Virus record (IMG/VR): IMGVR_UViG_3300044987_000462
Location: 1 to 32,052 of that record
Source of the DNA: a virus
Length of the DNA: 32,052 bases
Reading direction: 5' to 3' (one strand)
The translations under genes were made by a program, and so were the position numbers. Positions 15,701-32,052 of this stretch are shown one piece after another. The notes under the pieces were generated by a model, which was not told where the DNA came from, made no database searches, and saw only the letters and a list, made by a program, of their open reading frames with translations. Position 1 is the first letter of the stretch. Every line of letters starts with the position of its first letter.

Positions 15701-18700
15701 TCCGTATTAAGTATAACCGTAATTGACCCGGGTCAAGGATATGCAGTATTACCTCAGATTATAATTGATTCTGCTATATCAAGTGAGTTTGCTAGTACAG
15801 CAGTCAGTCCAAGCTATAATACCATTCAATTGTACGCCCCGTTGCTACAAACCGGAGACTTGATCAAGTATACTGTTGGAATTGGTAGCACTGCGATTGG
15901 TGGATTGACAAATAATCAATGGTATTATGTTAATGTATTAGAGACAGTACCTACTGTTACCGTAGCGTTGTATTCCAATTACAGAGATGCTCTCCAGGAT
16001 CAAAATAGAATTGTATTATTCTCGACTGGTACAGGAACTACTCACGCACTAAGTGTAGGAGCTAAAGCATCTTGCATATCCAGTGCGGCCCCTATCAGAG
16101 AAAATAATATTGCGTTACGATTTGACAGAACTACATACAATTCACAAGTAACTGATTGGGAGATGGACCTATATTATGGTTCATACTTTGCCGGATTCGC
16201 AGGTGCGTACAATGACCCACAATCAGTAGCCAGTTCTTCTATACAATTACAAAGTACACAACCGGCTATTAGCACTATTCTGTCCAGTGCCCAAGGGGTA
16301 GGCTTTGAAATTGTCGATGTTCGGAATGAGCAAACAGTTTCGTATTCTTCACTGATACGCCAAGTTGCTGAAATAATTGCGTTAAATCACGCTATTCGGT
16401 TAACACCTCTTGATGATGGCTCTAATAATCCAAATGCGTCGGGTTCTACTATTGGTTTCTATGTTAATATGCCAATTGTATTCAAAGGTGCTGTGTTAGG
16501 TGGATTGGTAAACGATACAGTGTATTATGTTAATAGTATAGTAGATGCTACAGACTTCACTATTTCACAATCAGTAGATGGACCTATCTTTGCTCTGACA
16601 GGTGGTACAGTTAGTGCTGCTGGTTTAGAATGTTCAGTTGGCGAAGTAACTAATCTTGCAGTACTTACGATTAATTATCCAGGCATCTTAGAGGTTACTG
16701 CGACTACGACAAGTACTAACACTATAACTATTCCGGTTACCTTGGTGGGGACAGGTGGCACTAATGGCTTCTATGTTAACTTACCGGTATTCTTTACAGG
16801 AACCGTATTTGGTGGGATAGTTGAAAACGAAATATATTATGTTACAACTGTACTCGATGAGCAAACGTTCACTATCGCTGAGTCCAAAGATCCAACAATG
16901 TTAGATGTGTCCGCTACTGCTGCTAGCACAGACTATGTTACAATATCAACTGATACCCAATCTCTAAAAATAAATGATCCTGTAATTTTTAACTCAATGG
17001 TAATACTTGGAGTGGATGTTACCGTGTTTGGCAACATTGTTTCAGGCACAACATATTATGTTGCTAGCATTCCTAACAATAATTCAATACAATTATCTGC
17101 TGTAGTTAACGGATCAGTATTTCCATTAGCAGATCAGGCTGCTAGCGTAGACCCCTTGCTTCCTACTAACGCAGTATTAACCAGTCAACGAAATGTTGTT
17201 CAGTTGTCTACCGCAACAGGAAGTATGACTATTAATGTGTCTATCCCGGTTAGCCCTGGTCAGATTAACGGTCAACAATTTACTTTATACAACACTTCAG
17301 AGCAATATCCTGACTTGGCAGGACCGGTTAGTTCATTAGTTACGCGAGAGATACAATCAACTATTGATACCGTAGATAGGGTTGCGATCAGTAGCTACAG
17401 TGGTGGATTAACAAACATATATGATAATTTTCCATTACAGGTTGAAACAAATATTGGTGGCCTAGTAACAGGAACAACATACTATGTAGTAGATTCTGGA
17501 TACATTGAGGTAGACGTTACTTCTACTTCACCATCTATTGCGTCAGCGGTAATTACCGGAGACATACTATCAGGCGCGCCAGTAAGCTTACTAACAGTTA
17601 CCGGTGTCACATCGGGCGCGGTAGTTCCGGGCTGTTCTTTGGCCGGCGGCACCGTCATTCCTGGCACTAAGGTGGTCTCACAAATAGCCGGCACACCTGG
17701 CGGGGTAGGCTCTTATTTTGTAACAAACTCACAAAATGTTATAAGCTCAACACTTACTTGCTCTCTAAGTGCGGTAACTTGTGACACGACTGATTCATTA
17801 TACATAGGTATGCCGATTATATTCTCCGGTGTACCGCTAGGCACTATCGATCTCAATGTAGAATATTATGTTAGACATATTGTTAATGGAACACAGTTTG
17901 TGCTGACTAATACACCGGGAGGGGCAATAACAACCCTGACGGTAGACAACGGAGTAATGACAGGTACCGGATCACCGTACATACAAGTATCAACAAGTCT
18001 TGGTGGAAGTGTAGAAGTATTAACTACCGAGACTGCGGTAGTTAATTTAGTCCAGTATCCGCTAACACCACCACTATTCAGTGTTAGTTATCGTATGGGT
18101 GGCTATCAGGCTATTATCACTGATTCGGGTACAGGATATGCTATTGATAATACCATCTTAATATCAGGCAGTAGCGTGGGAGGAACAACTCCGAATAATG
18201 ATCTTACCCTAACTGTTGTGGCAATCGGGACTAGCGGTGAAATAACAAGTGTTATCAGATCAGGCACAGTGCCTGGTATTTCTGACAGCTATTATTTGCG
18301 AGTAATTTCATCTACTGAATTAGCTGTATTCTCAAATCCGTTAATGACTGTACCGGTATCAGGTATTGATTTCCCCTATATAGGCATAATCTCAACTACG
18401 GTAACCGGAACTACTAGTGGATCAAATAGTATTACAGTTAACAGCGTAAGTGAATTTGCAGTTAATGATGCAGTGGTGTTTACTGGATCAGTAGCCGGAG
18501 GATTAATATTAGGACAAATATATTACGTGCTCACTGTATCACCGCTAACTGTTGGTACTGTTCCCAACGATGTTGGTTCTGTTGAAGTGTTGTCTACTAC
18601 TTTATTGCAAGATTTCACAATGGCTAAGTATGGCTCATATGCAGTCTTACCGGAACCGTTCTATTTTAATCAGAGTATTGTTCGGTATAACAATAGAGTC

Positions 18701-21700
18701 TACAGTTGTCTAATTAGCAACCACGATTCTGAATTTATATTTGGTAAGTGGCAGTTGTTAGATTCAGGTGATCGCAGATTAAATGCTTTAGATAGAGTTA
18801 TTGGTTACTATCAACCGACTGCTAATATGCCCGGCTACGACTTAACTCAATTAGTTAGCGGGATACAATATCCAAACAGCACGTATAAAGGCAATGCGTT
18901 TGCCCCTGACGAACAGTTCCAAATAGATACTATCTTACAGGATCAACCATTCTATCCCACTGAAGTTGATATGAAAGCGATAATCTGGACCGGAACAAGT
19001 TACTTTAGTCCTGCTGAAACATCAACGTATTCGGGTGTTGTGTCGGGCAGTGACGGTGAAAATTGGGTTATTGATAAACTAGCCAACTCAGTGTTAAGTC
19101 TGACTGGTATTATATATGTAAATGGAATATACCTTATCACGACTACTAACATTGCTACTCCTATCTTACGTAGTACTAACGCGATCACTTGGACTGCTGG
19201 AGGCCGCTATATACCCACAGCTTTGTTACCGAACGAGTCAGTAACCTTAAGCTCATCAGGTATGGCATTGAATTCTGTTGGGTATCGTGACGGAGTGTAC
19301 ATTGTGGCCGGCAGCAGCATTGCATCAAGTGTTGACGCATCTATCTGGACAAATAGATTTACGTTCACAAATGGATTGGTTAACACTTTGTACGGCGTTA
19401 AGGGAGTGAGTACAAACTCATATTATGGATTTGTAGCCATAGGTAAAGGGCAGATTCCTGATTATTCAACCGGACTAACTGAAACTATAGATGTAAATCT
19501 GGTGCTAACTAGCTTAGACGGTATCTCATGGTCACAAAGCCCGGCTTATAGTTTTAATGGGTTTTATAGCATAACGGACAACGGTAATATTATGGTTGCT
19601 GTTGGAGAGAACGGTGTTATTTACACTAGTCAAACTGGCATTGTTTGGCTAGGCGTGAATGAAGTTGCAGTTGTTAGTGTAAATTCTGACACTAATAATA
19701 TCAACGTTTCTAATACTGATGGATTCTTGGTAAATGATGAGATTAGATTCTCTAACTCTTTTAACGTAATATCGTCTTCTGTCACCTATTATGTGGTGAA
19801 CATTATTACCCAATCACAACTTCAGATTAGTACTTCATTGGGTGGACTGCCAATCACGTTAAATGATGTTAATCCAAGCACAACAACTTATATGTATTTG
19901 TATCCAAGTACAAGTGATCTAAATGATGTGTTATTTGATAATTCTATATTTATGGCCGTCGGTAATGACGGGTTAATTAGAACATCGGTGGACGGTTATG
20001 TATGGGTAACGCAAGTCTCTGGTACGCTAGAAAACTTAAATAGTTTGGTATATAACGCGACTGCGGCTACGTGGACTGTGGTAGGTGATAACAACACTAT
20101 TATTCTAAGCTCTGATAATGGAGTAACTTGGACTAGCTCTTCGATATTTGTTGTAGTACCCACTGTGTATGATGTACAGGGTGATCCGTTTCAGGCTGGA
20201 TATGGTCCTGAGGAACTAGTAGCCGGCATCATAAGCGATAACATAACGTTGACAGTGGCTACTAGACCTGGCACAAATTGGCCAGAAACTGTATATCAGC
20301 ACGTGGGTTATAACGTGCTGTCAATCGAAATACAACCAACCTCAGCCACTCAGACTGATTACAGTTTTGATTTAGTAGCACAGACCCCGGCGCAACTTGC
20401 AGTGTTTGTCATCGACGGCATTACTGGTACGAGCACCTCGATATACGAACCTGATTACAGTATCGATTGGATTACTAATGTGATAACTTTAGCTATCCCG
20501 TTATCTTTCACTCCAATCACTGATACATTACGAATTGATGTGTATGAAACAGGAAACGGAAACCAATTGGTTAAGGCTAATACAAAGACAGATCCAATTC
20601 GTGTTAATCTAACCACAGGGTGGAATGAAATATATGTAAATTGTAACTATTCTGCTACTATATTCTCCGGCAGTGGCGTTATTAGACCTGGAACGGCACC
20701 CATAGCAGTTGAAGCAATAAAAACTACTGCGATAGAGAATACTATTACTTGCGTGGGAGTAAAGGATTTTGTACTTAATGACCCGATAACATTCCAAGGT
20801 ACTACGTTTGGCAACATATTAGAAGATACTACCTATTATGTTAAAACAATTAGCACAGTAACTAGTAGTATTACTGTATCAAGTTCATATAATTTCACTT
20901 CAGGTACTGCAGGTCCTACTTTTGTGGTTACAACTGCTGTGGGTTCGATGTATGTAGTTATTGCTGTTGGATCGGGCGCGCCGTGGGCTGAACCATTAAT
21001 GTATCACAATGGTGTGAAATTATTGCACGGGTTAACTGGAACAGTCACCAGAACTAAAGCAACAAATAATGCAGTAACCTGTAACACAACAGGTGGGTTG
21101 GTAGTAGGTACTGTAGTAGTCTTTAGTGACACTATGTTTGGTGGGATTATTATACCGCAAACAACATACATCATTTATAGTATCGTAGATGCTAATGAAT
21201 TTACATTAGAGGATCCTGCTAATCCAGGTAATGTGTTAGTGCTTACTACTGCAACCGGTGGAGCAGAATTCATATCAAATGACTATTCATTTGGTATAGC
21301 CGAGAATGGGGTTTCAGCGAAAATTATGCTAGCTGCGTCATACAATAACACAGTAGATTACTTAACCTATACTTTGTTCGGGGAAACTACCCCTACACAA
21401 TACGGATACACTATCCCGGAAACAGAACTGTTTACCGGTGACGGAACTACCGATACGTTTGTATTGGCAAATTATGTCGCTGATGATAACCCGACAAATG
21501 CTATCGTTGAAGTTAACGGATTACGACAGTCTGATACTGAGTATATTATTGATAATTCATTAAATGAGATAGTATTTACTACGGCTCCATTACTAAATGA
21601 CGTTATTGCGGTTACATCATACAATTTAACTGATAGACAGTATCTGAATACGCAATATGGGATTACTGGTGTCACGGTATCTGACATAACTTCTATTAGT

Positions 21701-23305
21701 AATGTTATTACTCCACCGATATCAATCACTAACATAACAGCTACTACTGCAGGGACTAATTTAATCACTTGTAATTCTACTAGTGGGTTTGTTGCCGATC
21801 AAACGGTAGAGTTCAAGGGAACTAGTTTTGACGCGAGCATTAACTCAGCCGGTACTGTTTATTTTGTACTATCCGGGTTTACAAGCACCGAATTTCAGAT
21901 TAGTACAACGCTCGGCGGAAGTGCAGTAGTATTAGTTGGAGGTACAGGACTATTGGTCGCGTATGTTGGCGGTCAGCCAGCTGTGCGTGTAACAACTGGA
22001 ATGGTTAATAACTTATCTGAAAACGACATAGTAAGAATAGACGGCGTGGTTGGGTCTACTCAACTAAACAACAATACGTATTATGTTCATGTGATTAATG
22101 ACGTACAATTTGACTTGTATGAACAACCATATGATCCGGCTTACTCAGCGGTAAATTACCCAATAACTTCGGTGTCATCATATACTAGTGGAGGATATGT
22201 TTGGCTAAGTAATTCCTTTGAAATTATAGACACCACAGCCAGTGACACTGCCTCTCTGCATAACAAAATTGTAGTCCCCTCAACTGCATTATTAGTAGTA
22301 GATACGCCCGTCATATTTACTGCGCCAGGCTCAATAATAGGTGATATTACATTGGGCGGTATTGTTGTTGGCACCACATACTATATTATTGAAATAACTA
22401 GTGTGACAGAATTTGTAATATCTGAAGAGAGGAACGGCACACCGTTTATATTAACATCAGATTCTGGAACAATGTATGTAACACAATGGGAACAAACTAA
22501 TGTGAATAGATTGTGGGTTACTGTAAACGGATACAGAATCCCATCATCAAGTTTACGGTTGAACCCGGCGAATGAAATTGGCATACTAACAGTTGTTGAT
22601 GCGGCTGATGAAGTAATAATAACCAGTATGATGCCATCGGCGACTCCTAATGAGGAAGTGTACTTGTTAAACGTAAATCAGCAGAATTCTGCAGCGGTGT
22701 ACAGGGCTAACACATTGACAAGAACTTGGTTAGTTCAGCCACTATTTAACACTGATACTGTAATTTATGTTGATGACATTACTCGTTTGACAGATACTGT
22801 TACTCAGATAGCAACTGCTCCTGCGGTAGTGGCAAATCTAATGAGTATTGGTTTAACAGCAGATAAGAGGATTATTTCTAATGTATCGGTGTATAACAAC
22901 ACTACTTCTGCGGAAATAAACAGTAGTAATTATAAAATTGTGATAGAGGAACTGTCTCCAATCTTGCAAATTACTTCAGGATCTTGGATAGCCCCGGGTG
23001 ATCAGTTGACTATTACAATAATTGAAGGTAATTTAATTTACGTTAACGGAGAGCAAATAAAGTTCTCGTCAGTGGACACAGTGAATAATACACTGTCTGG
23101 ATTACAACGCGGGGCAAATGGTACCGGTGAACAAGTTTATGTTCCTTTATACAGCGAAATATTTAGCATCTTATCATCTAACCGTATGACAGATGTACAA
23201 TACAATCAAACTTGGAATTCTTATACTTTCAATCTAGTAGATGGCGATCCATTACAAATTAGCACAACTGCTTCTGCAATTTTCTTAAATCAGGATCAAT
23301 CGTAA
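3743..23305 (+). CDS. Giant mosaic baseplate/tail structural protein (6520 aa), in the gp7 position
   Basis: This single uninterrupted reading frame lies directly after the gp6-like gene (8-base gap, poor SD). Its place matches T4 gene 7, and T4 gp7 also carries a propeller, but homology to gp7 is inferred only. I recognise the N-terminus (residues 1-300, with [15 protein letters not shown] and [10 protein letters not shown]) as a type found in marine T4-like phages. Other parts, approximate residues: core without obvious repeats 530-850, 1000-2180 and 3230-3870; CBM5/12-like patches 2186-2228 and 4973-5006; FG-GAP propeller 2597-3230; GxGY-type turns 3950-4020 and 4800-4850; Asp-box propeller 5075-5470; about 14 copies of a module with the pattern ITCxSTxGFxVND, then FxGxxFGGI, YYVxxI, FTIS and a closing GSM, mainly at 4220-4935 and 5657-6245. 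Two copies of a GELIxY/SGLxRG module sit near 3880-3940 and 6428-6465. It has no signal peptide or membrane segments. Very likely a virion adsorption-apparatus component. Confidence 0.8.
4723..5320 (+). repeat. Triple nested modules inside the giant protein (residues about 327-526)
   Basis: An outer ITC/FGGI...YYIS/GSM module begins near residue 327 and reaches FGGI at 359-362, but its expected next strand (YYISSI) appears only at 495. The roughly 130 residues between are a second module: [17 protein letters not shown] at about 377, resuming as [17 protein letters not shown] at 472. That module is itself interrupted at residues 405-469 by a third, ITGS...LTVTTVNSG...SQTVASTTI. The third module occurs again at residues 4604-4672, which confirms its borders. 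Confidence 0.65.
4748..4771 (+). repeat. 24-base direct repeat, copy 1
   Basis: The same 24 bases occur at 21758-21781, in the same reading frame (encoding NLITCNST) and at the same position of the TYYV module. Most other module copies have drifted at the DNA level. Confidence 0.8.
10298..10425 (+). other. CBM5/12-like carbohydrate-binding patch in the giant protein
   Basis: The pattern [21 protein letters not shown], a spacer with a Pro, then NDWKR matches the small chitin-binding-type module (W...Y-x-x-G-x-x-V-x-Y-x-x-x-x-Y...P...W). Key residues are the W, the KG turn, the YKNKYW strand and the closing W. This suggests sugar binding, but the module is also a common structural knob. Confidence 0.4.
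11531..13430 (+). repeat. FG-GAP-type seven-motif beta-propeller region in the giant protein
   Basis: Seven motifs of the type (F/W/Y)G-x-A/S-hydrophobic followed by hydrophobic-I/S-x-P are visible: [33 protein letters not shown]...IIGTP, HFGNSV...[13 protein letters not shown]...VASAP and MYGQAMDF...IVGTP. This fits an integrin-like FG-GAP propeller. Between the fourth and fifth motifs lies an unrelated ITCTST/GSGM module (about 12200-12440); between the fifth and sixth lies another insert (about 12775-13050, with [12 protein letters not shown] and TQTINCPH). The fold is inferred from motif spacing. Confidence 0.6.
16420..18545 (+). repeat. Array of degenerate ~75-residue TYYV modules, first cluster
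   Basis: Successive module copies at about residues 4226-4295, 4316-4388, 4389-4496, 4570-4600 (lacking its C-terminal part), 4676-4740 and 4885-4935 share a hydrophobic-ND/NxP strand, a (V/L)FxG strand, a GG(I/L)V turn, TYYV, and an FTI/FVL strand. They have diverged at the DNA level. A second copy of the ITG...SQ-V module is inserted at 17552-17758. Confidence 0.6.
18658..18760 (+). other. Second CBM5/12-like patch in the giant protein
   Basis: [18 protein letters not shown], a short spacer, then FGKWQLL repeats the strand-turn-strand-W layout seen at 10298-10425. It lies directly before the Asp-box propeller. The function is inferred only. Confidence 0.35.
18967..20150 (+). repeat. Asp-box (BNR-like) propeller region in the giant protein
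   Basis: Seven Asp-box-like motifs (S-x-D/N-x-G-x-x-W type) occur in order: [42 protein letters not shown] and SSDNGVTW. They are separated by hydrophobic strands such as [10 protein letters not shown] and [10 protein letters not shown], as in Asp-box propellers. One ITC-type module (about 19670-19875) interrupts the series between the fifth and sixth motifs. Confidence 0.6.
20713..22475 (+). repeat. Array of degenerate ~75-residue TYYV modules, C-terminal cluster
   Basis: Five copies are visible near residues 5657-5738, 5768-5843, 5994-6073, 6079-6138 and 6160-6245. Key landmarks are [57 protein letters not shown] and [17 protein letters not shown], each followed by a YYV, YII, YFV or YII strand pair. 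Short linkers of different sequence separate them. Confidence 0.6.
21758..21781 (+). repeat. 24-base direct repeat, copy 2
   Basis: Exact match to 4748-4771, about 17 kb away, bounded on both sides by mismatches. See copy 1. Confidence 0.8.
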
Positions 23306-23321: not shown

Positions 23322-23474
23322 ATGAATGAAAAGACCTCAGCCAGTCAAGAAAAACAGCAAAATAAACCGGAATCCAAGCCCAACGACGTTGGTGGATTCT
23401 ATTTTTTGTCACATCTGAAAATATCTGATCCTAATTCAAACGAAATTCTAGTACAAAAAAGAGGCGATAGCTAA
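23322..23474 (+). CDS. Small protein (50 aa) mimicking the N-terminal motif of the next gene
   Basis: This reading frame is too short for routine ORF calling. Residues 1-22 are hydrophilic and rich in Lys, Gln, Glu, Ser and Pro, likely disordered. Residues 24-50 end in LKISDPNSNEILVQKRGDS, which copies the start of the following protein (LKIHDPNTGEILVDKRNSI): 12 of 16 residues of the core are the same. The protein stops exactly where the downstream protein continues with its INYENMS stretch. The stop codon overlaps the next start (TAATG at 23472-23476), which suggests translational coupling. There is no SD before the ATG. The role is unknown; a competitor, assembly partner or leader for the next protein are all possible. 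The copied motif, coupling and packing support it as real. Confidence 0.6.
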   Translation: MNEKTSASQEKQQNKPESKPNDVGGFYFLSHLKISDPNSNEILVQKRGDS

Positions 23475-24094
23475 TGTCAGTCATTACTTTATCATACAAA
23501 ATTGAAGGTTTTCTAAAAATACACGACCCTAATACCGGAGAAATATTGGTAGATAAAAGGAATAGTATAAATTACGAAAATATGTCTGAAGCTATCGCGG
23601 ACACGCTAAGCAGTCGAGGCTACGGAGAAATCTATCAGATGGCATTTGGAAATGGCGGGGCATCAGTTGATGAAACTGGAACTATAACCTATTTACCACC
23701 TAATACAACCGGTCAGAATGCGGCATTGTACAACGAAACTTATGTTAAAATTGTAGATGATACTAGCGTTTTTAACTTAGATCCAACAAGAAATAAAATG
23801 ACCGTGTCTCATACCACTGGAAAAGTCTATACCGATATTCTGGTACAGTGCTTACTAGACTACGGTGAGCCTGCAGGACAAGCTGCGTTTGACAATAGTA
23901 CGCAGACAGCAGGCGAATATGTTTTTGATGAGCTTGGATTATTAGCTAATTACGGTACAGATAGCGGAGGGAATGTTATAACTAGATTATTAACCCACGT
24001 AATCTTTCACCCAGTACAAAAAAGTTTGAACAGACAGATACAAATTGATTACACCGTTAGGATCCAATCCTTAACGAATTTAGTAACAATTTAA
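23474..24094 (+). CDS. Phage virion structural protein, KIxDPxTGEILVDKRN family (206 aa)
   Basis: I recognise the N-terminal pattern GFLKIHDPNTGEILVDKRNS followed by INYENMSEAIADTL, and the C-terminal LLTHVIFHPVQKSLNRQI with a final beta hairpin, as a conserved protein of T4-like aquatic phages encoded among tail genes. No enzyme motif is visible. The middle (residues 60-150) is mixed alpha/beta with an FGNGGAS turn. An SD-like AGAGG lies about nine bases before the ATG, inside the upstream 50-codon gene, and the start overlaps that gene's stop. The position after the giant structural gene and before the fibre genes suggests a tail or baseplate accessory subunit; the exact role is unknown. 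Confidence 0.6.
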   Translation: MSVITLSYKIEGFLKIHDPNTGEILVDKRNSINYENMSEAIADTLSSRGYGEIYQMAFGNGGASVDETGTITYLPPNTTGQNAALYNETYVKIVDDTSVFNLDPTRNKMTVSHTTGKVYTDILVQCLLDYGEPAGQAAFDNSTQTAGEYVFDELGLLANYGTDSGGNVITRLLTHVIFHPVQKSLNRQIQIDYTVRIQSLTNLVTI

Positions 24095-24124: not shown

Positions 24125-25351
24125 ATGGCATATACGATTGTTAAAAGTGACGGTACAGTATTAACGACCATCGCCGATGGTACTATTAATACTACTAGTA
24201 CAAGTCTTGGTCTTCCGGGTAGAAATTACGCAGGTTATGGACAGGCGTTAGATACTAACTTCACCCATATGGCTGAGAACTTCGCTGACACGGCGCCACC
24301 GGCCAATCCTCTAAGAGGGCAGCTATGGTATAATACAAACAACAGCACACTGTATGTGTGCCCTACTGACGGAGAGTCTAACGCAGCAGCATGGTTGGGG
24401 TTGACATCTACCAGTAGTGGTGGTGCAACGACATTTGGTGCAGTTACAGTCACTGGTAATTTGTCGGCGAATAATATATCTGCGGTAAATAATTCAAATG
24501 CGAATGCGATATTCACTTCATATTTGACGGTATCTGCGAATGCAAGTATAGTAGATTCAACTACAACGACTGCTAATATCGGTACGCTTACTACTACTGC
24601 GATCACCACCGGTGCTGCTACTACGGCAGGGACGTTGACAGGTTTGTGGACTATTAATGGTGGCCCGGGAGGCGCTAACGCTAACGCTGTTATTTTTAAT
24701 ACCGGTGGAATTTTCATTAGTAATTCTGCTGGCGCGAATTTATACGGTATTAAGACAGACAAATATATGTATGCTAATGGCACCCCTATTAGCTTTGCAG
24801 GCACCTATGCGAATTCGAACGTAGCTAGTTATCTACCGGTATTTGGTGGAAACATCTTATCTTCAAATATTCAAACTCCTATCTTAACGACCGGCGTGTC
24901 GTCAAATGCAGGGGTAATCACTGGTAATTGGACATTAAGTTCAGGTTCGCGGCTAAATGCTACATACGCTGACTTGGCTGAAAGATTTGAAGCTGATGAT
25001 TCATACAGCCCTGGCACAGTGGTTGAACTCGGCGGTGATAAAGAAATTACTGCTGTCAGACACGATTTAAGTGAAGATGTATTTGGAGTAATCTCTAATA
25101 CTGCGGCATATTTAATGAACTCGGGCGCCGGAAATGATTCTACTCACCCGCCAGTTGCTGTTAGCGGCAGAGTTCAAGTTAAGGTTACTGGTCCAGTTAG
25201 AAAAGGTCAACGATTAGTAAGTGCTGGAAATGGTATTGCTAGAGCAGCCATAGTCGGTGAAGCAAGCGCATTCAATACTATCGGCAGATCATTAACTGAG
25301 AAGGCTTCTACTACTATCGGGACAGTAGAAGCCATCGTAATGATTAGATAA
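24125..25351 (+). CDS. Tail-fibre-like protein with C-terminal G2-peptidase-like domain (408 aa)
   Basis: The N-terminus (MAYTIVKSDGTVLTTIADGT, then LGLPGRNYAGYGQALDTNF) is the attachment type seen in many short tail-fibre proteins of T4-like phages, and GQLWYNTNNSTLYVC near residue 65 is a familiar fibre segment. Residues about 95-200 form a Thr/Ser/Asn/Ala-rich, low-charge shaft. The C-terminal 130 residues, from YADLAERFEADDSYSPGTVV to PVAVSGRVQVKVTGPVRKGQ, resemble the G2-peptidase/intramolecular chaperone type domain, which folds as a beta barrel at fibre tips and is sometimes self-cleaved. I cannot place a catalytic pair here, so cleavage is not claimed. It likely forms trimers on the virion and contacts the host. 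SD GGAG lies 9 bases before the ATG. Confidence 0.65.
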   Translation: MAYTIVKSDGTVLTTIADGTINTTSTSLGLPGRNYAGYGQALDTNFTHMAENFADTAPPANPLRGQLWYNTNNSTLYVCPTDGESNAAAWLGLTSTSSGGATTFGAVTVTGNLSANNISAVNNSNANAIFTSYLTVSANASIVDSTTTTANIGTLTTTAITTGAATTAGTLTGLWTINGGPGGANANAVIFNTGGIFISNSAGANLYGIKTDKYMYANGTPISFAGTYANSNVASYLPVFGGNILSSNIQTPILTTGVSSNAGVITGNWTLSSGSRLNATYADLAERFEADDSYSPGTVVELGGDKEITAVRHDLSEDVFGVISNTAAYLMNSGAGNDSTHPPVAVSGRVQVKVTGPVRKGQRLVSAGNGIARAAIVGEASAFNTIGRSLTEKASTTIGTVEAIVMIR

Positions 25352-25360
25352 GGATAATAA

Positions 25361-26314
25361 ATGACTTACGCACAATATGGCTTGATTGAAGCCACAGATT
25401 ATAACACTTTGGTTGGTGGAAACCCTGTAATTACTAGTGGCAGATTGAATACCGTATGGGCTACTGGTGGTACAGCAGCCGGATATGGGCAAACTGCTGT
25501 TGCTAATGTCGCCGTCGGAACTAGTGTAACCGCATCTCAGTGGGCTTCACTCATTAACAATACTGCAAATTCAGCATCACATCAGGGTTCTTCAATTACC
25601 AGTGTAGTTGCCCCTAGTGCGGGAGGAACAGTAACATATTTGTCAGCTATTCCTACTAACCTAACCACTATCTATACCAATCGGCTAAACGCAGCAACGC
25701 AAGGTAGTACTAGTTCTAACACAGCGACATACGCAAGTACTTGGAGCTCGGCTTTAACCTTCGTCCATACTATAACATTTGCTTCGGGTGATGCGGCTAG
25801 ATACTTCTTTAACGCGGGTGGGCAGTTGGCAGTAACGTGTTCGCATCCAGCTGGAACTGGCATCAATTTACTATTAAACGGATTAGCTAGTAACATTGGT
25901 ACTGTGGTATTAAGCTCCCCTACATCAGGTTCGATCACAGTGGCATCTACTTCGTATAATGGAGTGACTAAAATAGCCGGCGGCGGCAACACTCCTACTA
26001 TTAGTGCTAACTCTGGTTATTATGCGCAAACAACATCAAATGCTAATGTGTTTACTCAACTAGCATCGACTGGCCCATCTGGTTATTTAAGCACGTTTAT
26101 TCGTGTAATAACTAAATCAAATGGAACTCAGGGATCAAATGGTGACGCCGGAAGCATAATTACCATTTACACACTGTGGGATGAAGTACCTGACGGACTC
26201 TCAGCGTCTGCTGGATCAGCTACTACGGTGACTATACGGCCGCCTGAATCAGTTTATTTGCCATCAGCATCGTGGGGCGCGCCCGCAGTAACTGGCACGG
26301 TTACTGGCTCGTAA
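25361..26314 (+). CDS. Tail/fibre-associated structural protein (317 aa)
   Basis: I recognise the opening (MTYAQYGLIEATDYNTLVGG, then LNTVWATGG and GYGQTAV) as a conserved protein encoded beside tail-fibre genes in marine phages. It is rich in Gly, Ser, Thr and Asn with short beta strands and no enzyme motif. The last 40 residues (TTVTIRPPESVYLPSASWG) look like a terminal beta strand with a Pro-rich tail. There is a nine-base gap after the fibre gene with SD AAGGA, and no promoter-like motif in between, so the two genes are probably co-transcribed from 24095. The exact role is unknown; fibre, fibre adaptor or head decoration cannot be separated from sequence alone. Confidence 0.55.
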   Translation: MTYAQYGLIEATDYNTLVGGNPVITSGRLNTVWATGGTAAGYGQTAVANVAVGTSVTASQWASLINNTANSASHQGSSITSVVAPSAGGTVTYLSAIPTNLTTIYTNRLNAATQGSTSSNTATYASTWSSALTFVHTITFASGDAARYFFNAGGQLAVTCSHPAGTGINLLLNGLASNIGTVVLSSPTSGSITVASTSYNGVTKIAGGGNTPTISANSGYYAQTTSNANVFTQLASTGPSGYLSTFIRVITKSNGTQGSNGDAGSIITIYTLWDEVPDGLSASAGSATTVTIRPPESVYLPSASWGAPAVTGTVTGS

Positions 26315-26330
26315 TTTTTAATTACTCCCC

Positions 26331-26372
26331 TGTATCCATCTAAATACTCTTAAGGAGTGTTAGATGGATACA
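26331..26372 (+). promoter_or_regulatory. Perfect 13-bp inverted repeat enclosing SD and start codon
   Basis: The arms are TGTATCCATCTAA (26331-26343) and its exact reverse complement (26360-26372), with a 16-base loop. A further ACTC/GAGT pairing inside the loop (26346-26349 and 26355-26358) covers half of the SD. AAGGAG (26352-26357) is in the loop and the ATG (26364) is in the right arm, so in a read-through mRNA both would be hidden. A transcript started at the late-promoter-like motif overlapping the left arm would lack that arm and be open for translation. Confidence 0.7.
26339..26346 (+). promoter_or_regulatory. T4-like late promoter motif TCTAAATA before the modification cassette
   Basis: TCTAAATACTC keeps the TAAATA core found in the other larger gaps but is the weakest match to TATAAATA. 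A start six bases downstream would be near 26352, giving an mRNA that begins at or next to the SD AAGGAG. It would drive the whole run of overlapping genes that follows. Confidence 0.45.
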
Positions 26373-26669
26373 CAAACATTAATTAGTGATGCCCGAGCTA
26401 GATTCAATCATAGCTCAGCCAAAGCCTACCTTAAAGAAAAATATGATAGCAAGCTTATTGTTGCTGATCAAGGTGGTCTTTGGAAAGTCAATTTAGAAAC
26501 AATCAATTTCTTAAACGCCACTCTCTCTGATACAATCATTCTCATAGACACATTCGCTAATCCAGTTAAAGTAAATCGCAGCGACCTTTTAACTAAATTA
26601 CAATCCATCTACGATGAAACCATGCAAGAATGGTATGATGAATGGAGTGAACTAGAGAGAAAGCGATGA
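26364..26669 (+). CDS. Conserved-looking hypothetical protein (101 aa), first gene of the modification cassette
   Basis: I do not recognise the family with certainty. Visible: an N-terminal helix (residues 1-30) with charged residues, a short beta hairpin (LIVADQGGLWKVN, 31-43), then a strand pair with TIILIDTFANPVKVNRSDLL, and a strongly charged C-terminal helix (about 75-101) with several Trp, Glu and Lys. This looks like a small soluble alpha/beta protein, perhaps a binding partner of the enzymes that follow. SD AAGGAG is optimal. Its stop overlaps the next start by ATGA. Its start region lies in the 13-bp inverted repeat, so its expression is probably limited to late transcripts. Confidence 0.6.
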   Translation: MDTQTLISDARARFNHSSAKAYLKEKYDSKLIVADQGGLWKVNLETINFLNATLSDTIILIDTFANPVKVNRSDLLTKLQSIYDETMQEWYDEWSELERKR

Positions 26670-27469
26670 CTAGAGGTGCAATCTTGTTTGCCTTTAACTC
26701 GCCAAAGTATAACTATTACACAATGGCAGTAGCAACAGCTAAACGTATAAATCATTTTTTATCAATGCCGGTAACCATAGTCACGGATGAAAGTTCAATC
26801 CCAGACCAAGTTGACTATCAATTTGATAATGTGATAATAACTAAGCCGGATAAAGGCAACATTCGTGATTATAGTATTTGGATTAATAAGGGCAGATACC
26901 AAGCATATGAACTTAGTCCATATGATGAAACCTTGCTCTTAGATACCGACTATATGGTTAATTCATCTAAACTGTTAAAAACATTTGAGACTTCAATTGA
27001 TTTTTGCTGTCACGATGCCACTACTTTTCTGATGAATGTGGGCGCAGCGCAAGAAGTATTAAGCGCATACAGCTATAAAACACTATGGGCCACTGTGATA
27101 GCCTTTAGAAAAACCAATAGAGCAAAGCAAATATTTGAGTGTTTGGAAATGGTTCAGAAAAACTATGAGCATTATGGTAATATTCATAGTTTTATAGGAG
27201 GGGTCTATCGTAATGACTATGCGTTAACGTTAGCACTTAGGATTGCTAATGGGCATTTAATGCAAGCAGAAGATATCATTCCATGGAACTTAACCCATAT
27301 TGGCAAGAACACTTCAATCTATGCAAATTCTACTGATGAATTTAATACTGAATATACTGTGATGTTTGATAATTGGCAACGTGCTAAGATCCGAAAAGAA
27401 TATATGACTATTAAAGATATGGACTTTCACGTTATGCAAAAAGATAACTTCTTAGAGTTAATAAAATGA
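26666..27469 (+). CDS. GT-A-like glycosyltransferase, first of a tandem pair (267 aa)
   Basis: This is a probable sugar transferase of the GT-A fold. The N-terminal half alternates strands and helices (GAILFAFNSP, MPVTIVTDES), followed by YQAYELSPYDETLLLDTDYM. D93-T94-D95 is a DxD motif at the end of a hydrophobic strand, where GT-A enzymes bind the nucleotide sugar through a metal. The C-terminal half has a probable acceptor region (LWATVIAFRKT at about 142-152, DYALTLALRIANG near 188-200). Acceptor and sugar are unknown. The next gene is a clear paralogue of the same length, and start and stop overlap by ATGA on both sides, so the genes are translationally coupled. The closest T4-phage theme would be a virion or DNA modification; the location beside fibre genes favours a virion or surface target, which is inferred. 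Confidence 0.6.
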   Translation: MTRGAILFAFNSPKYNYYTMAVATAKRINHFLSMPVTIVTDESSIPDQVDYQFDNVIITKPDKGNIRDYSIWINKGRYQAYELSPYDETLLLDTDYMVNSSKLLKTFETSIDFCCHDATTFLMNVGAAQEVLSAYSYKTLWATVIAFRKTNRAKQIFECLEMVQKNYEHYGNIHSFIGGVYRNDYALTLALRIANGHLMQAEDIIPWNLTHIGKNTSIYANSTDEFNTEYTVMFDNWQRAKIRKEYMTIKDMDFHVMQKDNFLELIK

Positions 27470-28269
27470 CTAAAGGATTTGTAATCCTCGCTCAAAATAC
27501 CGCTGATGTTGACTATGTTAAATGTGCTGAGGTCTTGGCACAAAGCATTAAAGCTCAAATGCCATCTGCTAATGTATCACTTATTAGCGACAACACTACT
27601 CTATGTAAAGCATTTGATCAGGTTATTAAGCTACCATACGGTGATATTGATCCTACTAGCAATTGGAAGCTATCTAATGATTGGCAAGTATATGAGGCTA
27701 GTCCATATGAATACACTATTAAGTTAGAAGCAGATTTGTATCTACCTAGCTCTATAGACCATTGGTGGCACACTCTACAGCAGCGTGATGTTGTGATATC
27801 CACGACCATTAGAAACTTTAGACAAGACATTTCTACTTCGCGAGCATACAGAAAATTTATTGACGACAATGCATTGCCGGACTGCTACAACGCTATCACC
27901 TATTTTAAGAAATCTGATACTGCTCGTTTGTTTTTTGAAGTAGTGAGGGATATATTTGAAAACTGGAATCAATATATTGCTATTCTCAAATGTAATAGAG
28001 ATGAGCTACCAACCACAGATTGGGTATATGCTATTGCCAGTCACATTGTTGGCGTAGAAAAAACAACACTGCCTAACTTTACAGCAATGAGCATGGTGCA
28101 TATGAAACAGTTTATTAATGATTTGCCCACCGCAGATTGGACAGATACGTTTGTTTATGAAATACTGCCCCACACCTTACGGGTAAATACTAACCCACAA
28201 TTGTACCCATTTCACTATCAATTGAAGAATTTTTGTGATAAAATAAGTAAGAGTTTATATGCAAGATGA
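27466..28269 (+). CDS. GT-A-like glycosyltransferase paralogue with altered DxD (267 aa)
   Basis: Same length and layout as the gene before it: MTKGFVILAQN against MTRGAILFAFN, and WQVYEASPYEYTIKLEADLY against YQAYELSPYDETLLLDTDYM. The DxD is here E88-A89-D90, so the first Asp has become Glu; one acid of the pair is kept. The C-terminal halves differ more but share an N/T-A-hydrophobic-x-(Y/F)-(K/R)-K strand followed by a helix (CYNAITYFKKSDTARLFFEV). It could be an enzyme with another metal or donor preference, or a non-catalytic partner of the first. It overlaps the upstream gene by ATGA, and its end overlaps the next gene by 11 bases. Confidence 0.55.
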   Translation: MTKGFVILAQNTADVDYVKCAEVLAQSIKAQMPSANVSLISDNTTLCKAFDQVIKLPYGDIDPTSNWKLSNDWQVYEASPYEYTIKLEADLYLPSSIDHWWHTLQQRDVVISTTIRNFRQDISTSRAYRKFIDDNALPDCYNAITYFKKSDTARLFFEVVRDIFENWNQYIAILKCNRDELPTTDWVYAIASHIVGVEKTTLPNFTAMSMVHMKQFINDLPTADWTDTFVYEILPHTLRVNTNPQLYPFHYQLKNFCDKISKSLYAR

Positions 28270-28609
28270 TGATGATTATATAATTTTATGGGAAGCTCCA
28301 AAGATTATCCCACCTGAGTTTCGTTTATATTATAGCGACACTGGCAAGGTAATTTGTTATACTTGTGAAAAACTTGATGGAAACTACATCATTATCGATG
28401 CTAGTAGCTATGCCGCGGGAAGACCTGATGTTAGAGTCATTGATGGAAAAATATCAAATCTATCAGAATGTGTCGTAGTCACTAAATTGATGCCAGATGC
28501 CATTACCGGGCAATCGTGCGTGACAGAAGATATAAGCATTGTAGTTGGTGCAGGTTATGTCGGGGATACGATTAAATGGAAATTAAACACGTATGAACTT
28601 AGGAACTAA
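28259..28609 (+). CDS. Unknown small protein (116 aa) between glycosyltransferases
   Basis: I do not recognise this protein. It starts with five acidic residues (MQDDDDYI), then ILWEAPKIIPPEFRLYYSDT, with a beta-rich middle (KVICYTCEK, NYIIIDASSYAAGRPDVRVIDG) and a short C-terminal beta pair (ISIVVGAGYVGDTIKWKL). It has no transmembrane segment or signal. The start lies 11 bases inside the preceding gene and the stop abuts the next start, so it is clearly part of the same operon. It may be a partner or acceptor protein of the neighbouring transferases, but nothing in the sequence proves this. Confidence 0.6.
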   Translation: MQDDDDYIILWEAPKIIPPEFRLYYSDTGKVICYTCEKLDGNYIIIDASSYAAGRPDVRVIDGKISNLSECVVVTKLMPDAITGQSCVTEDISIVVGAGYVGDTIKWKLNTYELRN

Positions 28610-29560
28610 ATGAATTCAAACATAGTAGATATAGCAGATTTAGACGTTGTGTATCTAAGCTATGATGAACCCCAAAAGGAAGAATTTTGGCTTAAGATTA
28701 AGAATATGATACCCTGGGCTAAACGGGTTGATAATGTTAAAGGTAGTGACGCCGCACATAAAGCTGCGGGCCTTGCAAGTGATACTGAACGATTTATTCT
28801 AATTGACGGTGACAATATGCCTGAAGAAAGTTTCTTCAATTTACAATTAGACTTTACCAACAAAGACCCTACCTTTAAACTAGCGCAATTTCGTTGGAAA
28901 GCAATAAACAGCATTAACGGTTTGCGCTACGGTAACGGTGGTATGTCGTCCTGGACACAGGAATATGTTGCCAATATGAAAACTCACGAACATCAAACTG
29001 ATGGTGACGTATCACGCATTGCTGATTTTTGTATGGACGGCAAAGACAATTTGTATTGGGCAATGCACGATTGTTATTCAACAACGTATCCTAACTATAC
29101 TCCATTTCAAGCCTGGCGAGCAGGATTCCGAGAGGGTGTCAAGATGAGTTTAGATAGAGGTGCGAGGCCTAGCATAGAGCAATTTAAAGAAACCGTCGCA
29201 ACTAGAAATTTAAACAATTTGACCATCTGGCATAATGTAGGTGCTGATGTTGAGAATGGCTTATGGGCTATCTATGGCGCAAGACTGGGCACTTACATGA
29301 CCATGTTGACTGAGTGGGATCCTGCAAATGTTCAATGGTTTGATAATTACACTGCTTTATGGGAAGAACATAAAGGTCTAGACCCTGAAAAAGAATTAAC
29401 TTTATTGGGAGAATCACTAGCAGCTAAATTAGATTTACCTATGTGTACATTAACTTTTTCACAGAGTAAATTCTTTAAGCGACATTATAAAGCTGACTTC
29501 CGCAATATAGGCCCATTAGTAACAGAAATGGATGTAATTAGAAAAATAGAGGGATGGTAA
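28610..29560 (+). CDS. GT-A-like glycosyltransferase family protein (316 aa)
   Basis: The N-terminal part follows a GT-A layout: LDVVYLSYDEPQKEEFW, MIPWAKRVDNVKGSDAAHKA, then TERFILIDGDNMPEESF. D66-G67-D68-N69 gives a DxD at a strand end. The phrase YLSYDEP...AKRVDNVKGSDAAHKA is one I remember from aquatic phage proteins annotated as glycosyltransferase-like. It differs from the two tandem paralogues upstream in sequence around the DxD and in length, so it is a separate lineage. Residues 100-200 are rich in Trp, Tyr and His (YGNGGMSSWTQEYV, NLYWAMHDCY) and may form the acceptor site. The start follows directly on the previous stop with SD AGGA; four bases separate it from the radical SAM gene. 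The substrate is unknown. Confidence 0.6.
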   Translation: MNSNIVDIADLDVVYLSYDEPQKEEFWLKIKNMIPWAKRVDNVKGSDAAHKAAGLASDTERFILIDGDNMPEESFFNLQLDFTNKDPTFKLAQFRWKAINSINGLRYGNGGMSSWTQEYVANMKTHEHQTDGDVSRIADFCMDGKDNLYWAMHDCYSTTYPNYTPFQAWRAGFREGVKMSLDRGARPSIEQFKETVATRNLNNLTIWHNVGADVENGLWAIYGARLGTYMTMLTEWDPANVQWFDNYTALWEEHKGLDPEKELTLLGESLAAKLDLPMCTLTFSQSKFFKRHYKADFRNIGPLVTEMDVIRKIEGW

Positions 29561-29564
29561 GAGA

Positions 29565-30959
29565 ATGTCATCAGAACAAAAAAGAATCAAAGATATTAAA
29601 ATACGAATCGAGAATGAAGTAGGGCCTACCTTCTGTCTTGCTAAATGGCATCATGTGACTATGTATTTACAAACAGGGGAGACACATAGTTGTTATCACC
29701 CGCAGCCACATAAGATTCCACTAAGTGAATTGAAAGACAACCCATCTGCGTTGCATAACACCATGCATAAGAAGTTAGAACGTAAAGAAATGCTTGCTGG
29801 TGAGAAACCTAAGGGGTGTCAATACTGCTGGAACATTGAAGCAATGGGCCCAGATTACATAAGTGACCGTCATATTCGTAACGCTAGTATTTTTACTGAA
29901 GAACGGTATGAGCAGACGGTTAAGGGTCCGTGGGATCAAAACATAAATCCAGAATACTTAGAAATTAACTTTGGTAATGAATGTAATTTCAAGTGTGGAT
30001 ATTGTCATCCAAAGTACAGCACACGATTCTATAATGAAATCAAAGAGAATGGCCCAGTCACTACAGTAAAGAATCATCGTTGCGACATTGATTGGATGAA
30101 ACTATACCAACGTGAAGAAGAAAATCCATACGTTGATGCATTCTGGGAATGGTGGCCTGAATTACGAAAGACATTGAATATCATGCGAGTTACTGGCGGT
30201 GAGCCAACCATGCACCGCAGCACATGGCAGTTGTTAGATAAGATTGCCGCTGACCCTATGCCGTGGTTGGAGTTGAATATTAACAGTAATCTAGGGACTA
30301 AAACCAGTTTAGTTGAAAAGTTAAGTGATAGTGTTAAGCAACTGTGTGATGACGGAAAGATTCGCTCATTTAAACTATTCACCAGCTTAGACACATGGGG
30401 CCCGCGCGCCGAATATATTCGTACTGGATTGGATTTGGAATTGTGGGAAAAGAATTTTCACACATACTTACAACGCACAGATAGTCCGATCACATTTATG
30501 ATTACCTTCAACATCTTCAGTGTAACTACCTTCAAGCAACTGCTTGTGAAGATGCTGGAATGGCGTAATCAATATGGATGGTACGACGACATAAAGAGTC
30601 ATCGTGTTAGATTTGATACTCCATACTTACGGGATCCACTGCAGTATGATATGAACATTCTTCCCAAAGAAGAATTTATGCCCTATATGCATGATTCTCT
30701 ACAGTTTATGTTGGAGAATGTTGATGATACTGCTAGTAATAAATTCACTACCGTTGAATATGAAAAGTTCAAGCGAGTAGTTGATTACATGGCAGAAACT
30801 GTGTATTCAGATGATAAACTACTAGAAGGACGCCGCGATTTTTACAATTGGTTTAATGAATTGGATGAGCGGCGAGACACAGATATGGTATCTATATTCC
30901 CTGAATATATAAACTTCTATAGAATGTGTCAGACAGATAACCGATTAAATCCACTATGA
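29565..30959 (+). CDS. Radical SAM protein with N-terminal twitch-type domain (464 aa)
   Basis: The radical SAM signature CNFKCGYC gives the CxxxCxxC cluster ligands C140, C144 and C147; TGGEPT (211-215) is the SAM-contacting GGE motif. N-terminal Cys residues C24 (FCLAKW), C43 (HSCYHP), C85 and C88 (GCQYC) are spaced as in the twitch/half-SPASM domain, which holds an auxiliary iron-sulfur cluster; in this group it lies before the core rather than after it. Later strands include SFKLFTSLDTWGPRAEYIRTG and FMITFNIFSV, consistent with the barrel. The C-terminal 80 residues lack further Cys clusters apart from one near the end. Twitch and SPASM enzymes typically modify peptides or sugars; the substrate here is not deducible. 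ATGA overlaps the next gene. A weak SD, AAGAGA, precedes the ATG. Confidence 0.85.
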   Translation: MSSEQKRIKDIKIRIENEVGPTFCLAKWHHVTMYLQTGETHSCYHPQPHKIPLSELKDNPSALHNTMHKKLERKEMLAGEKPKGCQYCWNIEAMGPDYISDRHIRNASIFTEERYEQTVKGPWDQNINPEYLEINFGNECNFKCGYCHPKYSTRFYNEIKENGPVTTVKNHRCDIDWMKLYQREEENPYVDAFWEWWPELRKTLNIMRVTGGEPTMHRSTWQLLDKIAADPMPWLELNINSNLGTKTSLVEKLSDSVKQLCDDGKIRSFKLFTSLDTWGPRAEYIRTGLDLELWEKNFHTYLQRTDSPITFMITFNIFSVTTFKQLLVKMLEWRNQYGWYDDIKSHRVRFDTPYLRDPLQYDMNILPKEEFMPYMHDSLQFMLENVDDTASNKFTTVEYEKFKRVVDYMAETVYSDDKLLEGRRDFYNWFNELDERRDTDMVSIFPEYINFYRMCQTDNRLNPL

Positions 30960-32052
30960 ACAAAGAATATTTATTAACAGAAAGCAAATCATTCTGTATG
31001 CTGCCATGGGTACATTTCAACACCAGTCCAACTGGCGATGTTCTGCCGTGTTGCATAGGAAAAACACCAATCGATGAGTTTGGTTATCATAAAGTCATTG
31101 CCAATTCAAACAAAGATAGCATGATGGAAATTGTCAATGCTACTGAGATGAAGAAACTGCGTGTTGATATGTTGCGTGATGTTAAAAATCCAATATGCGC
31201 GACCTGTCACAAGCATGACAGCATGGATATGGGAAGTTTTCGAACTAGCTCTAACAAACAATACGGTAACTATTTTGATACTGCTGTTACTCCTACCCGG
31301 GAAGATGGGTCCCTGACTGAATTTAAGATGAGATACTTTGATATCAGATTCAGTAATATTTGTAATTTTAAATGTAGGACTTGCGGACCCGATTTTAGTA
31401 GTCAATGGGAACAAGAGAATCTAAAAAACAATATCAGCCGCCGCATTATTTTAAAGAATAATAAAAAGGAATTTTTACAAGAGGTCTTAGATCAGATTCC
31501 CCATATGGAAGACGCTTATTTTGCCGGTGGTGAGCCGCTTATCACAGAGGAACATTACATAATGTTAGAAGAAATGATAAGGCAAGGTCGCACAGACATA
31601 GCATTGCGCTATAACACGAATTTTAGCAATCTAAAATTCAAAGATAAAGATTTGATGGGTCTTTGGAAGAAGTTCAAGCATCATATTCAAGTTTATGCTA
31701 GCGTAGATCATTACGGCGAACGTGCGGAATATATACGCCATGGCACCAATTGGGCCGACATAGAATATAATTTTGTAATGGCTAAAAAATCGCCATTCAT
31801 CAGGTTGCAAATGAATACTGTGCTAAGTTTATATAATTACAAGACATTTCTAGAGTTTTATCAATATCTATTTGATAAAGACTTGTACCCGGTCACTGCT
31901 CACTTTTCAATATATAATATGTCTAGTCCTGAATACCTTACTTCAAATGTTTTACCACAGCATCACAAAGATGAGGGCAGATTAAAACTATTATCACTAT
32001 TAGACCTAATGCGGGAACGCGGATTCTCTGCTAATACTCCGTCGCTTACCGC
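30956..32052 (+). CDS. Second radical SAM protein with N-terminal twitch domain, 3' truncated by window
   Basis: The frame starts at the ATGA overlap with the preceding gene and is still open at the last base (365 codons seen), so it was not listed as a closed ORF. The N-terminus has the classic twitch layout: FCMLPWVHFNTSPTGDVLPCC with C14, C32 and C33, then ICATCH with C81 and C84. The core signature CNFKCRTC gives C136, C140 and C143, and AGGEPLI is at 190-196. It also shares Y-x-S-V-D-x-Y-G-E-R-A-E-Y-I-R-x-G (TSLDTWGPRAEYIRTG in the neighbour), so the two are related paralogues, though their N-terminal domains differ. The twitch motif here is closer to the common LPWxHLxxxPxGxxxPCC form than in the first. 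Substrate unknown; co-expression with glycosyltransferases suggests joint action. Confidence 0.85.
   Translation, partial: MNKEYLLTESKSFCMLPWVHFNTSPTGDVLPCCIGKTPIDEFGYHKVIANSNKDSMMEIVNATEMKKLRVDMLRDVKNPICATCHKHDSMDMGSFRTSSNKQYGNYFDTAVTPTREDGSLTEFKMRYFDIRFSNICNFKCRTCGPDFSSQWEQENLKNNISRRIILKNNKKEFLQEVLDQIPHMEDAYFAGGEPLITEEHYIMLEEMIRQGRTDIALRYNTNFSNLKFKDKDLMGLWKKFKHHIQVYASVDHYGERAEYIRHGTNWADIEYNFVMAKKSPFIRLQMNTVLSLYNYKTFLEFYQYLFDKDLYPVTAHFSIYNMSSPEYLTSNVLPQHHKDEGRLKLLSLLDLMRERGFSANTPSLT

Follow-up and report, generated by a model that had tools for sequence, protein, structure and literature searches.

A virus gene set that joins glycosyltransferases (GTs) to radical S-adenosylmethionine (rSAM) proteins beside tail genes raises the question of what these enzymes modify. 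The set lies at the end of the window analysed here, the whole 32,052-base stretch of the complete IMG/VR record IMGVR_UViG_3300044987_000462, where open reading frame (ORF) analysis gives a cassette of seven coupled genes at 26364-32052, all on the + strand and beside tail genes. The cassette is proposed, with a probability of about 0.55, to be a cytoplasmic, phage-encoded modification system for the phage's own tail protein(s); this reading is favoured over a change of the host surface, which is considered unlikely. The genes of the cassette are:

26364..26669, + strand: A101, cassette gene 1, a small conserved protein (184 relatives, median identity 62%)
26666..27469, + strand: B267, a retaining-type GT-A glycosyltransferase by predicted fold (glycogenin/GT8-like), with a DTD motif at residues 93-95
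27466..28269, + strand: C267, a B267 homologue and probable GT-A glycosyltransferase, with ExD replacing DxD
28259..28609, + strand: D116, a small conserved protein (179 relatives, median identity 56%), in place of which locus L065 has a 190-aa protein
28610..29560, + strand: E316, a GT-A-like domain (residues ~1-164) with an invariant D66-x-D68 and a helical C-terminal part
29565..30959, + strand: F464, an N-twitch rSAM protein (NF033640, 314 bits)
30956..32052, + strand: G365, a second N-twitch rSAM protein, from which the record end cuts off ~50-60 aa

The seven-gene layout of the first-pass annotation, with ATGA overlaps at 26666, 27466 and 30956, an 11-base overlap at 28259 and an abutment at 28610, agrees with the ORF check, which adds a 4-base gap before 29565. 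The two small proteins that it left without a family, A101 and D116, are conserved and have no match in Pfam, PHROGs or NCBIfam, nor among GenBank phages.

The earlier assignment of three GTs is carried by predicted folds (strongly for B267, moderately for E316) and by sequence for C267, and finds no counterpart among curated families. B267, C267 and the E316 of the window have no GT match in Pfam or NCBIfam, no GT family appears among 41 members of the B267 and C267 families at E 0.1, and PDB profile searches on the GT candidates return nothing significant. The single PHROGs match for the candidates is that of C267 to phrog_1903 (unknown function). A named family for B267 and C267 (GT8 or GT6) is dropped for want of a curated-model match, and the two are filed under the GT-A fold. 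The structure of B267, predicted on an alignment of relatives (pLDDT, the predicted local distance difference test, 93), has Foldseek matches near E 5e-7 to GlyE, glycogenin and alpha-1,3-galactosyltransferase, and aligns with glycogenin-1 at Z 16.8 over 207 residues (root-mean-square deviation 3.7). A retaining GT-A fold is strongly supported by this model and is regarded as settled at the level of prediction. Comparison of the C267 and B267 families by HHalign (probability 99.3, E 3.1e-20, 207 columns) makes C267 a probable GT-A glycosyltransferase by homology, and D95 of the B267 DTD motif is invariant across both families. The E316 model, predicted in the same way (pLDDT 82), has a best Foldseek E of 2.3e-4, with matches that include a PBCV-1 capsid glycosyltransferase. 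The best Z of E316 is 10.1, to B4GALNT1, over ~142 residues, and nucleotidyltransferases are also matched; the protein is thus termed GT-A-like, with moderate support from the model. D66 and D68 are invariant in the E316 family, GT2 hits occur only at E 0.03-0.1 and in single members, and GenBank phages hold no close homologue. In more distant phages, a long N-terminal region precedes an E316-like domain within one protein (L043 3783-6164, where this region is repetitive, and L026 3599-6373). Proteins that look sulfotransferase-like by eye lie beside E316 or rSAM genes in two further loci (L217 11895-12599 and L219 10956-11630; no Pfam match at E 0.01).

DNA-modifying GTs encoded by viruses are on record (cited in PMC12619734), and the enzymes of the cassette might be imagined to act in DNA hypermodification, with the GTs glycosylating modified bases and the rSAMs altering base or sugar. 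In line with this idea, Tet_JBP has a weak match, under its cut-off, in one large record. The idea is nonetheless very improbable: the predicted glycogenin/GT8/GT6-like fold of B267 is that of protein- and glycan-acceptor enzymes, the cassette sits among virion genes and not among replication genes, and Tet_JBP is absent from nine of the ten large records and over cut-off in none, in a search aimed at Tet_JBP and not at other routes.

The rSAM assignment is firm. F464 and G365 score 314.1 and 324.3 bits, respectively, against NF033640 (N_Twi_rSAM, twitch domain-containing radical SAM protein), well over the curated cut-off of 170 bits, and both belong to this family by score and domain order, as the first reading of the locus had it. 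The N-terminus of G365 also matches SPASM (PF13186, 5.3e-10), and its full-length counterparts in relatives are ~410-430 aa. In a nine-member alignment that includes F464 and G365, four N-terminal cysteines (C18, C36, C78 and C81) and a CxxxCxxC triad (C133, C137 and C140; numbering of the protein at L007 11242-12477) are invariant; thus, by alignment, the sites for both the SAM cluster and an auxiliary cluster are retained. Since PF04055 undercounts these rSAMs, NF033640 counts are preferred. The NF033640 search took in 12 related records and control bacteria; five records of 303-525 kb have 6-17 matches each at E 0.001, with 5-12 over the curated cut-off, and none of the control bacteria exceeds it. 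Among GenBank phages, rSAM relatives are of only 22-25% identity and occur in Vibrio phages K566/K567 and a marine fragment. A scan of genome contigs gives no match with a single rSAM query and 33 loci with an rSAM alignment; the bacterial members inspected are mostly single genes in unrelated contexts, whereas the phage members stand in tandem arrays. In the K566 isolate (L229, 254,938 bp), an rSAM-rich stretch has four places that distantly resemble NF033640, and a gene annotated as PagP lies close by.

The position of the cassette is conserved in relatives, and its content varies at the far end. The tail genes upstream are:

23474..24094, + strand: t206, a virion-type tail-region protein common to Rak2/Atu_ph07-like jumbo phages (phrog_11259, E 6.7e-68)
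24125..25351, + strand: t408, a tail protein with a C-terminal autoproteolytic chaperone-like (Peptidase_G2) region (PF11962, 26.2 bits, cut-off 25), whose ends match a 626-aa Phosso protein and a 607-aa Atu_ph07 protein
25361..26314, + strand: t317, a lineage-specific tail/fibre-like protein immediately upstream of the cassette and a candidate substrate for modification

Relatives in IMG/VR comprise 69 loci for G365 and candidate stretches numbering at least 596 for F464 and at least 545 for E316. The cassette order is kept in ~180 loci, which are partly redundant, as many come from the same sites and the counts are not independent. In the fetched loci, E316 and F464 have a median identity of 78%, and A101, B267 and C267 have medians of 62-70%; neighbouring cassette genes share a strand and, from A onward, overlap by a median of 1-11 bases. 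Independent scattering of the genes was tested in loci recruited by t206 alone, 62 of which have at least 9 kb downstream. All 62 have A, B, C, E, t317 and t408, and 61 have D, so that the linkage beside tail genes first noted in the window holds for A-E; F (54/62) and G (46/62) are limited partly by locus length. Where 9.5 kb follow E (n=61), F is present in 46 loci and G-type rSAMs number 0 to 4, and one adjacent B-C pair occurs in each of the ten large records. These recruited loci and counts indicate that the cassette, as read from gene content, consists of a GT block that is fixed (A-E) and an rSAM/sugar-decorating block whose content varies. The order t317-A-B-C-E-F-G persists in L064/L065, where B and C are only ~30-34% identical. 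A Rhodobacteraceae contig from a metagenome-assembled genome (MAG; L232, NZVE01000006.1) carries phage tail genes and the cassette at 74-99% identity over most genes to IMG/VR relatives; it is probably of phage origin and was placed in a bacterial MAG during binning.

The identity of t206 to Atu_ph07 and Phosso (50-52%) and to 121Q-like phages (44%) places the source, a large aquatic phage, among the Atu_ph07/Rak2-like jumbo myoviruses. A single 6,520-aa ORF at 3743-23305 of the window occupies the place that the giant structural protein has in Atu_ph07 (~4,450 aa) and in Phosso. The moraphages of PMC12619734 were set aside as the same lineage, having other predicted hosts and no mention of radical SAM.

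The tail slot of cultured relatives bears on the proposed target. No cassette occupies this slot in 121Q or Vibrio phage 2.275.O. In Phosso and Atu_ph07 it is filled: next to the tail homologues come a cupin, one rSAM/SPASM gene, a protein with a Cys/His-rich tail (CH-tail protein), small proteins and further rSAM genes. The CH-tail protein is 296-306 aa, ends CHxSCHxSCHxSRSRR and looks, from its sequence, like an rSAM substrate; it lies between rSAM genes at L230 20098-20988 and L231 19300-20220 (Atu_ph07 AUZ94952 and Phosso). By accession numbering, anchored on the major capsid protein (AUZ94997 = gp215), portal (AUZ94980 = gp198) and prohead core protein (AUZ94986 = gp204), the Atu_ph07 CH-tail protein is gp170, which makes it the first gene of the virion-protein cluster defined by mass spectrometry as coding sequences 170-215 (PMC6102473). 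Hence gp170 may itself have been among the virion proteins detected. Both cassettes stand in the same slot behind homologous tail genes and contain a number of rSAM genes with small accessory proteins. They differ in that Atu_ph07 and Phosso have conventional rSAM/SPASM enzymes, a cupin and the CH-tail protein, while the window has GTs and N-twitch rSAMs; BLAST finds no homologous gene between them beyond weak rSAM similarity. The CH-tail family is limited to Atu_ph07 and Phosso among GenBank phages, and a broader search of IMG/VR with the rSAM of Phosso gives one record only, apparently Atu_ph07 itself. As a homologue of the CH-tail protein, t317 was rejected (HHalign probability 0.26 against CH306). 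With the family so limited and t317 not detectably homologous to it, the comparison speaks for the slot and not for descent: the tail slot hosts rSAM cassettes, and these sequences do not indicate common ancestry of the two.

The same enzymes suggest a different product. SPASM/twitch clusters are common in peptide-modifying rSAMs, and the rSAMs of the cassette could mature a peptide like the ribosomally synthesised and post-translationally modified peptides (RiPPs), or a sugar compound (toxin, signal or antibiotic), with the tail linkage reflecting shared late transcription. The SPASM match of G365 and the many rSAM paralogues per genome are compatible with this, as are the weak scores of the Phosso/Atu_ph07 slot enzymes against the RiPP maturases PapB, DynA and DarE, which lie far under cut-off; D116 and A101 may be rSAM substrates. 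Such a product is nevertheless improbable, as a scan of 228 loci for C-terminal Cys motifs gives four hits, none with a repeated core, and no locus has a Cys/His-rich repeated C-terminus; furthermore, the gene content is mostly that of sugar enzymes.

Relatives that extend past the window end bear out the expectation of more cassette members. They encode up to three further N-twitch rSAMs, a 325-aa rSAM, a 437-aa protein with no family, a nucleotide-sugar epimerase (PF01370, 6.5e-41), SGNH-like proteins (by eye) and a B12-rSAM; some add UDP-glucose dehydrogenase with a methyltransferase, or a carbamoyltransferase. For the full cassette, this overturns the earlier view that there is no sign of nucleotide-sugar synthesis, and the absence of such genes from the window is explained by the record ending inside the second rSAM gene. 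In a few relatives, the rSAM run contains or adjoins a gene for a DUF481 protein (L118 13942-14601 and L232 11224-11898) that probably has a signal peptide and is possibly an outer-membrane barrel.

Remodelling of the host surface is the foremost of the alternatives and a serious rival, though still an unlikely one. The enzymes would change the lipopolysaccharide or capsule glycan of the infected cell, e.g., against superinfection. The published reading of GT-rich tail-adjacent islands in pelagimyophages, rSAM cassettes included, is of this kind (PMC7029224), jumbo-phage polysaccharide clusters are on record (PMC7824862), and a comparable rSAM pair lies close to a carbamoyltransferase-like gene on a contig from Bdellovibrionia. 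Several observations count against a tail-protein target. The epimerase, SGNH, carbamoyltransferase and UDP-glucose dehydrogenase genes of relatives are usual in surface-glycan loci, the first three being typical of surface polysaccharide clusters. Host enzymes (carriers and flippases) could take over a lipid-linked route. The parallel with Atu_ph07 and Phosso is, by sequence comparison, one of position and kind with no close gene in common, and the upstream tail proteins have no detectable homology to the CH-tail protein. Some relatives keep the GT block with few rSAMs; thus, rSAM action may be optional or separate. On the other side, ten records of 264-525 kb contain no PF02397 initiating glycosyl-phosphate transferase and no PF01943 Wzx-type flippase, and nucleotide-sugar epimerases are present in 10/10. 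Unless host enzymes step in, glycan made by the phage would thus reach a protein in the cytoplasm more readily than a lipid-linked polymer of the surface. The linkage to tail proteins, fixed across wide divergence, and the absence of PF02397 and PF01943 favour a virion target, and the lack of these Bac_transf/Wzx genes together with the tail-slot rSAM cassettes of cultured relatives tilts the balance toward a virion protein.

If tail-protein modification is the role of the cassette, its likeliest targets would be the upstream fibre-like proteins encoded at 25361-26314 and perhaps 24125-25351. B267 and C267 (GT-A) and E316 (GT-A-like) would attach sugars to the tail protein, and F464, G365 and the paralogues that follow in relatives would then perform radical chemistry on the attached sugar or nearby side chains, by epimerisation, dehydration, cross-linking or C-methylation. 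Supply or decoration of the sugar would fall to the downstream epimerase, SGNH proteins and B12-rSAM, joined in some relatives by a carbamoyltransferase. A tail tip changed in this way would bear on receptor binding or on how the phage escapes the surface defences of its host. A bolder and tentative version, itself rather doubtful, is that the rSAM enzymes rebuild the tail protein or its glycan, much as RiPPs are matured but on the scale of a virion, and that jumbo phages swap alternative rSAM cassettes at this slot.

Tail-adjacent GT islands with rSAM genes have already been reported in pelagimyophages. The host recognition cluster of these large myophages is a variable island between VrlC and gp14 that includes several GTs (GT8 being the commonest) and radical SAM cassettes, its function untested (PMC7029224, 2020). 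The likeness to this cluster is in described gene content, i.e., tail-adjacent GTs with radical SAM cassettes in large myophages, whereas the system described here has a fixed order, conserved A-E and tandem N-twitch rSAMs, and belongs to Atu_ph07/Rak2-like jumbo phages. Virus-encoded GTs that act on virion proteins are a further parallel: mycobacteriophage capsid and tail-tube glycans are attributed to phage enzymes (Freeman et al. 2023, as cited in PMC12619734), and PBCV-1 has a capsid glycosyltransferase. As far as the accessible text of these sources goes, the targets there are capsid or tail tube with no radical SAM component described, whereas a tail/fibre protein is the proposed target here. 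In the open-access literature, no fixed GT block with an N-twitch rSAM array in Atu_ph07-like jumbo phages, no rSAM acting on a virion protein and no reported activity for the N-twitch rSAM paralogues was found.

The many N-twitch rSAM paralogues constitute a pool of enzymes. Atu_ph07 (grown on Agrobacterium C58) and Phosso (Sinorhizobium meliloti) carry a tail-slot rSAM cassette of a different make and render the idea testable by virion mass spectrometry. If tail-protein modification is correct, prediction of host range from sequence only would miss a layer of tail modification, and phages would modify their own adhesive parts by radical chemistry, adding an extra layer to receptor recognition and to the evasion of host defences.

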